NCBI GenBank assembly: GCA_021797675.1
Contig: JAJZZH010000100.1
Location: forward strand, 1 to 40,370
Length of the DNA: 40,370 nucleotides
Source of the DNA: Bacillota bacterium
GTDB taxonomy: Bacteria > Bacillota > Sulfobacillia > Sulfobacillales > Sulfobacillaceae
Direction: 5' to 3'
This document shows positions 2,861 through 36,667 of this stretch, in pieces. The notes beneath the pieces are model-generated. The model did not search any database and was not told the origin of the DNA. It was given only the letters and a program-made list of their open reading frames with translations. The translations under genes were made by a program, and so were the position numbers. Position 1 is the first letter of the stretch; every line of letters starts with the position of its first letter.

Positions 2861-4708
2861 TTACGACTTAGCAACATAGACCATATCCCAATATTTCAAA
2901 GTGGGGAGAACGAACGTCACATAGGTCCCCTGCCTATCGTGCCCGACCTGAAAGGGAAGGCGCTGGGTTGCGCCGTGGGCATAATCCGGCGAAGCCAGAT
3001 ACACCGCGGTGGGATGGGCGGCTCCGACCGCATAGCGCACCGTCGTATGGCGAAGCACCACGGGGGCCGGATCGCTGCCGGTCGCATCTTGCCACAGGGC
3101 AACGGGCTGATTATCCAGGTTGATCAATTGCAATACATCGAATCGGCGATTGGTCCGGCTAAACGCCCACACCGTTTGCGCAGCCCCATCCGTACTCGTG
3201 GGCACCTGGGCGATCGACACCGCAAGCCTTGCCCTATGGAGCGGGCCGCGCAGAAGATTCTCGTAGGCGGTCATGAAATTATAGTAGGACAGGAGGTCGG
3301 CTTTCAAGGACGCGCTCATGATGAGGTCATGATTGGGAAAATACGGACCGTTCAACATTTGTAGGTTGTCGCCCAATTCGATATGATCGCCTCCGCTGGC
3401 GAAGATGGTCGCGTCGGCGAGCAGAACGCCCGGCAGGCCAAAATACCCAGGGTGTTGGTCGGAGTAGCCTTGAGCCTTCGCACTATCCAGATATGCCGCC
3501 AACACCACGCCTTTGGTGTGTCGGGTCAACGTGTTGGCCTCATTGATGACGCCTTGCAGGTCGGAATAGGCCACCTGGCCGGAGCCGGGCCACGCCTCCA
3601 CATAAACCACGGATTCGCGCGACGCACGGGCCACGTGGGTGAGGCCGTAGCCTCCCACGTTGTTAAAGATGACTTGCTTGTGCAACGTCGTGACCGCGGC
3701 GTTCAGAAAGGGCGCAAAGGTGGCGACGAGATTGACCGGCTGCCCCTGTGCGGTATCCACCAATCCCAGATACCCCAATTGATCCACTTGCCACCCATCA
3801 AAAGGGTACAGCTTGAATACTTTCGCCTCTTGGCCCAGGATATAGCGCCGCCATGCCGGGTTTCCCGGATTGAAGACATCAATCGCGCTGGTCTGCCAGC
3901 CGCTGGGCATGGCGTAACTGATCTGGGATTGGCCCTGCGGATCGGAGTACAGGCCCCACTTCGGATTGACGCCGGCTGACCGGTAGTCCGCCCATGCCCC
4001 ATAGAGCAAGTTATAGTTAAAGGACTCCATGCCCAGGTGGTGGCCAACCGTAATCATTTCGACAATGGTCCGGCGGTAATTGGTTCGACCGGCGATGTCC
4101 TGCCAGGAGGCGGCCGGATGGGCCACGGTGCCCGCCACCGGCACGTCATGTTTCCACTGCCAGTCGTAGAATTGCAACGCATCGATATGATATGCGTTCA
4201 GTTGCTCCAGTTCCTGTTGGACTTGAGCCTTGGACCGTTTCGGGTACTCGGAGACGAATCCGTAACGGGGAAACTTGGACCACGTTGAAGAGACGTCTAC
4301 GGCGGTGGCAAACGTGCTGCGGCGGGCACCCCGGTCCGTTTCAAACGTGCCCTCAAGGAAATAGCCCTGGTCGTCACGCGTTGGAGGCTTCCAGCCAAAC
4401 GCCAGGGTAACCGCACGGTGCGCCGGCACGGTGACCGTCTTGGCGGGCAGTTGAGCCACGCGTTGATTGAGATGCATCGCCGTGATCTGCATGACGCCCG
4501 TGATCGGAGCCGGCCCATGGTTGACCACCTTGGCCGCTAGCTGCACGGGCTCTCCGGGAAGGTATCGCGCCCGGTTTGGCGTCAGCGCAATCTGGACCGA
4601 AGCGCTCGCCGACCCGGGGCCCGCCGCCGCCCGGCCGGGCGAGCCCCCGCAGGTCAAAGTGCCCGCCGCCACCACCGAGATGACCCCGATCCACCGTGAT
4701 TTCATCAT
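2861..4708 (-). CDS. secreted GH66 dextranase/CITase-like enzyme
   Basis: This 615-residue GH66 paralogue of the next gene has an N-terminal hydrophobic signal segment (residues 6-20) ending in LTCGGS. The Cys20 could be lipidated although the preceding residues are not a classical lipobox. A beta-sandwich domain (about 36-140) is followed by the catalytic barrel with RYGFVSEYP and LQFYDWQWKHD. The predicted nucleophile is Asp309 in FDGWQVDQLG and the acid/base Glu371 in VYVEAWPGSG. It probably cleaves dextran-like polymer outside the cell to oligosaccharides that the upstream ABC system imports. The start overlaps the GH13 stop by four bases (ATGA), indicating translational coupling, and GGAGGAAG lies upstream. 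A second ATG three bases in is equally possible. Confidence 0.85.
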   Translation of the reverse strand: MMKSRWIGVISVVAAGTLTCGGSPGRAAAGPGSASASVQIALTPNRARYLPGEPVQLAAKVVNHGPAPITGVMQITAMHLNQRVAQLPAKTVTVPAHRAVTLAFGWKPPTRDDQGYFLEGTFETDRGARRSTFATAVDVSSTWSKFPRYGFVSEYPKRSKAQVQQELEQLNAYHIDALQFYDWQWKHDVPVAGTVAHPAASWQDIAGRTNYRRTIVEMITVGHHLGMESFNYNLLYGAWADYRSAGVNPKWGLYSDPQGQSQISYAMPSGWQTSAIDVFNPGNPAWRRYILGQEAKVFKLYPFDGWQVDQLGYLGLVDTAQGQPVNLVATFAPFLNAAVTTLHKQVIFNNVGGYGLTHVARASRESVVYVEAWPGSGQVAYSDLQGVINEANTLTRHTKGVVLAAYLDSAKAQGYSDQHPGYFGLPGVLLADATIFASGGDHIELGDNLQMLNGPYFPNHDLIMSASLKADLLSYYNFMTAYENLLRGPLHRARLAVSIAQVPTSTDGAAQTVWAFSRTNRRFDVLQLINLDNQPVALWQDATGSDPAPVVLRHTTVRYAVGAAHPTAVYLASPDYAHGATQRLPFQVGHDRQGTYVTFVLPTLKYWDMVYVAKS

Positions 4709-14279: not shown

Positions 14280-14352
14280 CCGTCACGGCAAGGATCGCGA
14301 AACGGCCAGGGAACATGGGTTTGCAGGTGACTACTCCCGTCCTCCGCTATCC

Positions 14353-14394
14353 AAGGGATGGTTATGGGCAATTTAAGGGATGGTTATGGGCAAT
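14353..14394. repeat. 22-base tandem duplication at the edge of repeat A
   Basis: AAGGGATGGTTATGGGCAAT occurs twice, at 14353 and 14375, with a 22-base period. The second copy runs into the dispersed repeat starting at 14381, suggesting slippage or target duplication at its boundary. Confidence 0.7.
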
Positions 14395-14600
14395 CTGAGG
14401 TTGGATTTTCCCGCTTTCTACTCCAAATCGCCCTCAGCGGCCATCGAGACCCAGGTTGCCATGGCCGCTCCGGGCTCTACGGTTTTGCATACCTCACGGG
14501 TTGGAAACGCCACCGGACCGTTCCCTGAGGGAGCGCCTGCTAATCGTGGTCCACAACGACGGGTTGTTGTGGACCGTGCTAGTGCACGAACGCCCCCGTT
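14381..14600 (+). repeat. dispersed ~220-bp repeat, copy A (candidate ncRNA)
   Basis: This segment aligns almost without gaps, at roughly 70 percent by eye, to 35145-35361 in the same orientation. Shared blocks include TATGGGCAATCT, AGGTTGGATTTTCCCG, GGTTGGAAACGC, CTAATCGTGG and ACGCCCCCGT. Copy A contains a perfect 10-bp hairpin, GGTCCACAAC (14548-14557) with GTTGTGGACC (14566-14575). The open frame across it has no ribosome binding site and is not preserved as protein. It could be a structured RNA, an RNA-guided-nuclease-associated RNA without its protein, or a small non-autonomous element. Confidence 0.6.
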
Positions 14601-34773: not shown

Positions 34774-35112
34774 TTTCACGCTTGGCGCCTCTATACCACG
34801 ACGTTTAGCTGGCCCGAGGTCGACGGGAACGTTGACCTGGGCGTTGCCGGCAGCCAGAATATCACTCCTGCGTGGTTTCGAACGCTTGACGGCGGCAAGC
34901 GCTGGACGTCCGTGGCACTACCACCGGACGCACCCGGCGATCATCGGGCCGCCACCATTCATCGTCTAAGGCCCGCCGACGTTTGTGAACCGGAATGTGG
35001 GGTTCTTGAGCCTGGGGGCACCCCGTGCACTCAAATTTACCGTACGGCGAACGCCGGTAAGACTTGGCTGCCGATGACAACCACCCCGGTGCCCTCGGGA
35101 AAGGTTATAAAA
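34774..35112 (+). pseudogene. fragment of a BNR-repeat protein
   Basis: In one plus-strand frame, without start and after an in-frame stop, the sequence reads WFRTLDGGKRWTSVALP and later IYRTANAGKTWLPMTTT. These are two Asp-box (BNR) motifs about 70 residues apart, as in sialidase-like or photosystem-stability-factor-like propellers. Between them lies a Cys-containing loop, CEPECGVLEPGG. Protein-like sequence stops where a perfect hairpin and dispersed repeat B begin, suggesting truncation by that element. It begins 35 bases after the unknown secreted protein and may once have been part of a neighbouring gene. Confidence 0.6.
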
Positions 35113-35145
35113 TCCAGCCGAGAAAAGCTGTCGGCTGGATTTTAT
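35107..35145. repeat. perfect 15-bp hairpin at the edge of repeat B
   Basis: ATAAAATCCAGCCGA and TCGGCTGGATTTTAT pair perfectly around the 9-base loop GAAAAGCTG, with further wobble pairs outside. It marks the junction of the BNR fragment and repeat B. It could be a transcription terminator or an element terminus. Confidence 0.7.
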
Positions 35146-35361
35146 GGCTATGGGCAATCTCAGGTTGGATTTTCCCGTTTTTTAGCCCAAGCCGCCCTCG
35201 GCCGCAATCCCGTCCCAGGTTGGAACGGACGCTCCGTGCTGCAAGGATTTTTGTGCCTCGTAGGTTGGAAACGCAAGCGGACGGCTTTCTGTGATGGGGC
35301 ACCTAATCGTGGATCACAACGATGGGGAGATGTCAGGTGCCAGTGCGCTGACGCCCCCGTC
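35145..35361 (+). repeat. dispersed ~220-bp repeat, copy B (candidate ncRNA)
   Basis: This copy matches 14381-14600 in the same orientation with few gaps. Conserved blocks are spread over the whole length, while codon frames are not conserved, favouring RNA or DNA function over protein. The strong hairpin of copy A is not kept exactly here (TGGATCACAACGATGGGGAG replaces it). No nuclease or transposase gene adjoins it. Confidence 0.6.
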
Positions 35362-35395
35362 CGTCGATGACCCGCTACATACCGTAACGTGGTGA

Positions 35396-35641
35396 TTACC
35401 GCGGTATTCCCGAGATACCGAACACTAATTTAAACGCCCGACGATTCTTGTTCATCATCTTCAAGCCCTCGTTACTACTTAAAATCCATACGGTCTTGCC
35501 CATCCAACAACGAAAATAAATGCCATAAACCCGGCTGAAGGGTCGGATTCCCCTTACCTCGTTTTCCGTTCCATCAGGATGCTCAACTTCTGTGCGTACC
35601 CACCACGTATTTCCGATTCCGATTTCGACATACTGCTTCAT
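35396..35641 (-). CDS. DUF3977-like small protein
   Basis: This 81-residue protein begins KQYVEIGIGNTWWVRTE and continues EVRGIRPF, WMGKTVWIL and NRRAFKLVFGI. The arrangement recalls the DUF3977 family of short Bacillota proteins, whose function is unknown. GGAG lies six bases before the ATG at 35641. It is compact, rich in aromatic and beta-forming residues, and has no signal peptide or membrane helix. It sits about 130 bases downstream of the HIT gene on the same strand. The family assignment comes from memory of the pattern. Confidence 0.6.
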   Translation of the reverse strand: MKQYVEIGIGNTWWVRTEVEHPDGTENEVRGIRPFSRVYGIYFRCWMGKTVWILSSNEGLKMMNKNRRAFKLVFGISGIPR

Positions 35642-35770
35642 CGCCAACTCCGAATGCGATATTGTCTAGCAAGGTTCTCTGCTGAACGGACGCAGATGAG
35701 GATTTGCCCTGGGACACTCATCCGTCTAAGTCGGTCAGACACCGAGACCAGACTCTTCGCCGAAAATCGC

Positions 35771-36241
35771 TTAACGGTCATATTCCTCGATGAGTTTCTC
35801 CAGTCGCTGGGTAATGTTGGTCCGCATGGCTCCATGGAGCGCTTCCGTATATTGCAACGTCGGCATCCGCCACATTTCGGTGGGGTAGTGCCACACCGGA
35901 CGGTGCCTCCGTTCTTCCGGCTCCCAGATGTACCGGGGAACCACGTGAGCGTGAAGAAATTCGTCGGAGTTCCCGTAAATCGCATAATTCATGCGCCAAG
36001 GGTGGCACACATCGGCCACGGCTTGGCCTAACCGTGCCATATCGGCCAAATATTGGTTGCGGTCAGCAATCCTCAGGTCTTCCAACGCATTGACCTTCGG
36101 ATAGGCCAGCAACACACAATACCCCGGCAGAAATTGCGTATCACCGATGACCGCATAGCCGCTTTGCATTCGGGCCAGGACCATCGGATTCTTCCCTCGT
36201 TCTATCGCCCCAAATCGGTCCTGCTTCCATTCTTCGTTCAT
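35771..36241 (-). CDS. HIT-family nucleotide hydrolase/transferase
   Basis: This 156-residue protein has the HIT core: YCVLLAYPKVNALEDL near residue 41, then the triad segment FLHAHVVPRY. His97 aligns with the nucleophile and His99 with the last His of HxHxHxx; the first His is replaced by Phe95. The following IWEPEERRHRPVWHYP is typical of a HIT subgroup with a longer C-terminus. Members hydrolyse dinucleoside polyphosphates or adenylated substrates in the cytoplasm. The ATG at 36241 has AAAGGG eleven bases ahead. It is divergent from the SNF2 gene. Confidence 0.82.
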   Translation of the reverse strand: MNEEWKQDRFGAIERGKNPMVLARMQSGYAVIGDTQFLPGYCVLLAYPKVNALEDLRIADRNQYLADMARLGQAVADVCHPWRMNYAIYGNSDEFLHAHVVPRYIWEPEERRHRPVWHYPTEMWRMPTLQYTEALHGAMRTNITQRLEKLIEEYDR

Positions 36242-36667
36242 CCGCAGTCAGCCCTTTCATGGTCATTTGCCTCACCTCGTCTTGTTCTCATCGAATTCGT
36301 GCATGTCCATGCCGACATTCCAGCGAAGCTTGAGTCCTCCTAACGCGAGGTTTCGACAAACTTAGTGGGCATTCCTGCCAGTATGTGCATAAAGGCCCCA
36401 CCTCGGGCGGCTGATCCAACCACGTCTTGCACAATACAGCCGTTTATTCGGCAGACCCATCCAACCCTAGATTGCAAATAGCCGATTTCATAACCACGAG
36501 GGCGTCGGCGCTGAAAAGGTCACCGGTTTGCCTAAGCCGGGAAAGGGCGGGCATAATGTTCAAAGAATGGTCAGCGTAGTATTAAACGAATATTTTGAAG
36601 TCCATTCCGCGGCATGTCGAACCTGTATACTATCGCTAAGCATACTCATTCGGAGGGGTCGTACCTC
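36242..36667. other. divergent intergenic region
   Basis: This 426-base region separates the HIT gene from the SNF2 gene. The plus-strand part near 36580-36660 is A+T-richer and holds TATACT at about 36625, a possible -10 for the helicase gene with no good -35. No gene is supported. Confidence 0.35.

Follow-up and report, generated by a model that had tools for sequence, protein, structure and literature searches.

A dispersed repeat of about 215 bp in a family of Bacillota is very probably the end of ISL3-derived transposons that carry cargo and mostly lack a transposase

The window analyzed here, a whole stretch of 40,370 nucleotides, is contig C166 of the genome that we call G000. It contains, as an earlier note had reported, two repeats on the same strand, copies A and B, which are alignable at about 74% over their full length. 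These repeats of about 215 bp are very probably the ends of transposons derived from the ISL3 family, most of them devoid of a transposase, carrying cargo and presumably moved in trans. The earlier note had proposed a structured RNA or a small mobile unit as candidates. The second proposal came close, in view of the sharp outer edges, the inverted partners, the 8-bp target duplications and one empty target site, whereas the structured RNA did not hold.

The further copies that the note suggested looking for are numerous, both in the window's own genome and in 26 of the 34 searched genomes of its taxonomic family. In the own genome, for which all counts rest on searches, blastn returned 12 to 17 related stretches, the number varying with the query. 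A 25-bp terminal pattern with up to 3 mismatches matched 30 times in that genome, against 0 for a backward control pattern, and had 3 real matches in the window, against 0 in dinucleotide shuffles of the window. The same pattern occurred in 25 of the 34 family genomes and in 0 of 120 other genomes of the class. Among the genomes searched, which are drafts and in many cases metagenome-assembled, the transposon family is confined to the window's taxonomic family. Named genome contigs gave 11 exact matches, all in metagenome-assembled Bacillota/Clostridiales, and a search of phages, plasmids and IMG/VR gave no match to the repeat. The copies fall into several subfamilies. Subfamily III is 94–99% identical across genera, so that its movement was recent.

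Paired ends, units and target sites

The repeat is one of two related ends. The first, the I end, has a sharp outer edge, where an A+T-rich flank gives way to GGCTATGTGCAATCTGAGGTTGGA, followed by about 190 bp of conserved subterminal sequence. The second, the B end, was noticed in the sequence flanking many copies, as a rule in the orientation opposite to the I end, and consists of an outer GGCTATTTGCAATCTAGGGTTGGATG followed by one or two inner copies of TGTRTTGTGCAAAAYNYGGTTGGA. The terminal inverted repeats begin with GG at opposite ends (GGCTATGTGCAATCT... and GGCTATTTGCAATCT...). We had also considered the repeat of about 215 bp as a complete element ending at CTAACGCCCCC. This reading was rejected because no duplication was found around it and because the right flanks were partly shared; CTAACGCCCCC is the inner border of one end.

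Units were defined by their ends alone, as convergent I/B pairs, which gave 36 units of 99 to 5,040 bp. One of them (L210 from 1041) reflects a nested I end paired in an alternative way, thus the true number lies slightly below 36. Flanking 8-bp repeats were identical at 8/8 positions in 21 units and at 7/8 in 4 more, which makes 25/36 at 7/8 or better; when flanks were re-paired among units in 10,000 trials, the mean was 0.97 and the maximum 6 duplications. The target duplications are 81% A+T. The smallest units (99, 244 and 370 bp) consist of ends only, without a transposase, and those of 244 and 370 bp have perfect duplications, the one of 99 bp a match of 6/8. Some ends stand alone or are broken. 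A sister type of end, GGCTTTGTGCCATACCTGGTTGGAA, was also observed (L159 2065-2434; G000:C136 and C51), and includes an end-only unit of 370 bp with a perfect 8-bp duplication.

An empty target site was recovered for a 1,928-bp unit in G019:C96, which interrupts a tnpB-like gene: query positions 173-180 occur on both sides of the unit, as the 8-bp duplication, and uninterrupted tnpB-like homologues span the join in many relatives (G043, G003, G008, G023 and G048 among them). Examples of these homologues are G043:C127 1-359, at 82%, and the many copies in G023. In at least three further contigs, G003:C109, G043:C58 and the transposase-bearing G045:C392, the break falls on this target position too, so that units with and without a transposase are tied to one target preference. 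The tnpB-like gene, itself part of another mobile element, contains an insertion hot spot: several elements in different genomes sit at the same position with the duplication AGAATTTC or close variants of it.

The features of the window are given in Table 1. Copy B is explained by an inverted third end on the opposite strand, missed in the earlier note, with which it bounds a complete unit. The B end of this unit is without the middle repeat of full B ends. The unit encodes no transposase, only the DUF3977 and HIT-like ORFs and a fossil of about 27 codons, and is a non-autonomous derivative of ISL3. An empty site for it was sought in relatives and none was found, the flanks not being conserved there. 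Its target duplication sits at the T-rich tail of the perfect hairpin AAAATCCAGCCGA..TCGGCTGGATTTT, which the earlier note had placed next to copy B and which is indeed present. This hairpin (window 35109-35143) recurs in G000:C60, G018:C17 and G043:C12, that is, in the own genome and in two relatives, and is therefore a small dispersed repeat itself or a common terminator. As for copy A, a search of the window at maximum sensitivity for a partner B end gave a single credible match, the one at 36483 that belongs to copy B; copy A is best read as a left-over single end. The duplicated 22-base edge described for it was recovered. Elsewhere in the window, two adjacent minus-strand genes (1101-2822 and 2861-4708) encode similar proteins in which the motifs RYGF.S.Y..K and QFYDW were seen by eye in the ORF list, and are probably tandem glycoside hydrolase paralogues.

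Table 1. Features of the transposon unit and of the solo end in the window.
Feature	Position	Strand	Evidence
Solo I end (copy A)	14382..14598	+	nhmmer E=7e-44
22-bp tandem duplication over outer edge of copy A	14346..14389	+	86% identity
Fossil transposase C-terminus in copy A	14421..14504	-	tblastn, residues 407-434, 43%, E=0.024
Complete non-autonomous transposon unit, 1,338 bp, containing copy B	35146..36483		Convergent I and B ends, 7/8 flanking repeats
Left target-site duplication GATTTTAT	35138..35145	+	7/8 positions match GATTTCAT
I end (copy B): TIR GGCTATGGGCAATCTCAGGTTGGAT, subterminal GGTTGGA motifs, inner border CTGACGCCCCC	35146..35359	+	nhmmer with I-end profile, E=2e-48; alignment
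Fossil ISL3 transposase 3' end in copy B: PTYEAQKSLQHGASVPTWDGIAAEGGL, then in frame one codon and stop	35188..35268	-	tblastn with intact transposase as query: 41% identity over residues 407-433, E=0.001 (small database)
Passenger ORF, 83 aa, DUF3977	35396..35647	-	PF13122 E=7.1e-20, above cut-off
Passenger ORF, 156 aa, weakly HIT/Ap4A-type	35771..36241	-	NCBIfam NF052622 ATP adenylyltransferase E=6.6e-8, below cut-off; no Pfam match at 0.01
B end: TIR GGCTATTTGCAATCTAGGGTTGGAT, inner repeat TGTATTGTGCAAGACGTGGTTGGA, ends near TTTATGCACATACTGGCAGG	36369..36483	-	nhmmer E=1e-18 for 36460-36369 plus outer 27 bp; terminal pattern with 0 mismatches
Right target-site duplication GATTTCAT	36484..36491	+	One mismatch to GATTTTAT

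The ISL3 transposase and its traces in the ends

A single intact transposase was found adjoining an I end, on contig G045:C392. It is a protein of 434 amino acids of the ISL3 family (PF01610, 2.4e-57; HTH_Tnp_ISL3 and Zn_ribbon_ISL3; NCBIfam ISL3 transposase, 5.5e-95), with Pfam and NCBIfam matches above the cut-off, and its stop codon lies 37 bp from the outer edge of the I end. A truncated copy stands beside the I end in G014:C200. When the bacterial family was searched with the G045 transposase, over a dozen I ends were matched through its residues ~386-434, with an identity of about 60–86%. The earlier note had seen no conserved reading frame; read antisense, both copies of the window keep a short frame and stop that match the C-terminus of the ISL3 transposase. 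As the I ends contain this antisense frame and stop, part of their conserved blocks is the 3' end of a lost gene, and the remaining conserved sequence is terminal and subterminal end sequence. In the 187-bp and 215-bp I ends, the sequence past about base 127 is not transposase-derived.

No clear B end of the transposase-bearing element can be made out on G045:C392, where a weak B-like double repeat was seen at L267:908-988. On the same contig (L267, 219-10167), a ThsB-like TIR gene, hsdM, a DUF4357 gene, hsdS, hsdR and the ISL3 transposase gene follow one another in one orientation, the last of them overlapping the end of hsdR and being followed by the I end. This stretch may be a transposon with a type I restriction system as its cargo. 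As direct parents, the canonical ISL3 elements of the bacterial family were tried and set aside, as their ends do not match: one such copy in these genomes has a different terminal sequence (GGYTCYTCGCTRTTTAGTGT).

The units go back to an ISL3-family element in which the transposase gene stopped 37 bp inside the I end. Most of them have lost this gene and carry unrelated accessory genes between the I and B ends, which makes them mobile insertion cassettes or transporter-IS-like derivatives. To judge from the sequences, a G045-type DDE transposase, provided in trans by another element or cell line, would bind the repeated TGTGCAA..GGTTGGA motifs at both ends and join both ends to a staggered 8-bp cut in an A+T-rich target. 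Both ends and intact 8-bp duplications are found around intact accessory genes without a transposase, and such copies thus moved as units after the loss of the gene.

A search of the window's own genome for an intact cognate transposase found none, so that its units are either dormant or dependent on a gene that the assembly lacks or on a more distant relative of the transposase. Two of them, L008 and L158, nevertheless have perfect duplications, and the genome contains other, remote ISL3-like ORFs. These observations would suit an alternative in which the same ends are now moved by another transposase, either a divergent ISL3 relative or a member of another DDE family, the adjoining ISL3 gene being ancestral or a chance neighbor. 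However, over a dozen I ends contain the 3' end of the transposase gene, and the transposase-bearing element shares its tnpB target position with several transposase-less units. We thus consider this alternative unlikely and retain movement by the cognate transposase as the mechanism suggested by the sequences.

Cargo, inner borders and rival readings

The passenger genes differ from unit to unit, most units holding one or a few unrelated accessory genes between their ends. Among those identified are AbiD/Abi_2 (L015), PD-T4-7 (L116), a TacA-like antitoxin with GNAT (L142) and ParE (L087). Others encode a YgiT/MqsA-type zinc finger (L083), an Rpn-type PDDEXK_2 protein (L030), GNAT proteins (L096, L108), AAA_33 kinase-like proteins (L114, and L135 by similarity), ArsR (L053), an SDR protein (L175) and an alpha/beta hydrolase (L173). 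Further cargo resembles, by eye, methyltransferases or an antitoxin. The window unit and most of the 36 units therefore combine IS-type ends with a passenger gene and no transposase.

Whatever the cargo, likeness among I ends stops at CTAACGCCCCC and among B ends near CGGGCCGG. Past these inner borders, about 12 bp are weakly conserved despite the differing cargo (GWWNGYNSNNNA on the I side, WTAG.. on the B side; for example window 35357-35372), and this motif may mark where the transposase makes its innermost contact, or may be left over from cargo exchange. We considered a Xer/dif-like or integron reading of the inner border. A second, site-specific reaction would then exchange the cargo there, as integron-like cassettes inside transposon ends, and would account for both the sharp stop and the motif beyond it. 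Yet the units have no recombinase consistently linked to them, the motif lends itself to the transposase-contact reading just given, and homologous recombination or long-gone intermediates could also account for the replacement of cargo. Such an exchange seems to us quite doubtful.

Fossil transposase codons in the ends, together with the solo or broken ends, could also suggest that the repeats are merely decayed copies of an ordinary IS and that the cargo consists of host genes caught by chance. This is very improbable, as there are units with both ends, intact accessory genes and no transposase, and perfect duplications are present in 21 of the 36. Transposon units with genuine passengers remain the reading that we prefer.

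Under a further alternative, the repeats would be dispersed genes for a structured non-coding RNA, HEARO/omega-RNA-like or of another type. A structured RNA had been suggested by conserved blocks amid a diverged background, and this reading could also invoke the sharp edges and the good local hairpin of copy A. The blocks proved to be terminal and subterminal transposon sequence and the antisense transposase 3' end, the sharp edges are explained by the inverted partner ends and the 8-bp duplications, and the strong hairpin, although present in copy A, is not common to the family. The Rfam scan and the covariation analysis that had been proposed were both negative: no match was obtained for the window at the gathering threshold or for the copies at E<=1, and the consensus fold of 26 I ends reached only -3.6 kcal/mol, with 13 pairs in three short helices, of which 1/13 showed two-sided changes, no better than shuffles by that measure. 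We therefore regard an RNA gene as hardly credible. Separately, a sub-threshold Rfam match to the group-II-D1D4-6 intron (20.9 bits, cut-off 49) was seen near a contig edge at L007 1-58 (minus strand).

Relation to known mobile elements and meaning

The units share with the ISL3 family the transposase family (PF01610, NCBIfam NF033550), ends starting with GG, 8-bp direct repeats and A+T-rich targets. For example, imperfect inverted repeats of 19 bp and direct repeats of 8 bp have been described for one ISL3-family element (PMC12554700). The units differ in their complex ends, where conserved subterminal sequence, with repeated motifs, extends over about 215 and 170 bp instead of one short inverted repeat, and in that most copies contain other genes and no transposase.

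By their layout they recall mobile insertion cassettes (MICs), in which IS ends surround passenger genes without a transposase, and transporter IS (tIS), which carry passengers plus a transposase; both may be activated by a cognate transposase (PMC3129680). An example of a MIC is MIC231 of Bacillus cereus (cited in PMC6542083). Here too, IS-type ends flank passenger genes without a transposase. MIC231 belongs, as its name suggests, with the IS231/IS4 group; in the present units the parent is ISL3, and one end pair surrounds many unrelated cargos in several genera. The smallest, end-only and transposase-less units resemble MITEs, whereas most units carry genes and the ends are asymmetric.

Like integron gene cassettes, the units hold interchangeable accessory genes, such as toxin-antitoxin genes and acetyltransferases, between constant borders. 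They differ from these cassettes by terminal inverted repeats, 8-bp duplications, the lack of an integrase and a dispersed, not arrayed, distribution. It is conceivable, and we put it forward only tentatively, that they form a transposon-based cassette system, in which one complex ISL3-derived end pair with precise inner borders would serve to exchange defence, toxin-antitoxin and metabolic genes and to move them in trans between genera, as a functional counterpart of integron cassettes.

In the literature searched, we found no description of these ISL3-derived cassettes. The units are ISL3 by transposase and duplication, and MIC or tIS by layout; the new part is the combination of complex ends with a wide range of cargo within one bacterial family. 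Gene cassettes of this kind are easily overlooked in annotation because there is no transposase inside. Once the ends are known, the cargo can be listed mechanically and searched for new defence genes. Also, the mode by which cargo is swapped between fixed borders becomes a testable question. A single end pair marks dozens of units with accessory genes, phage-defence and toxin-antitoxin genes included, across most genomes of the family, and this swarm of gene-carrying cassettes represents a genuine type of gene mover that has been little described.
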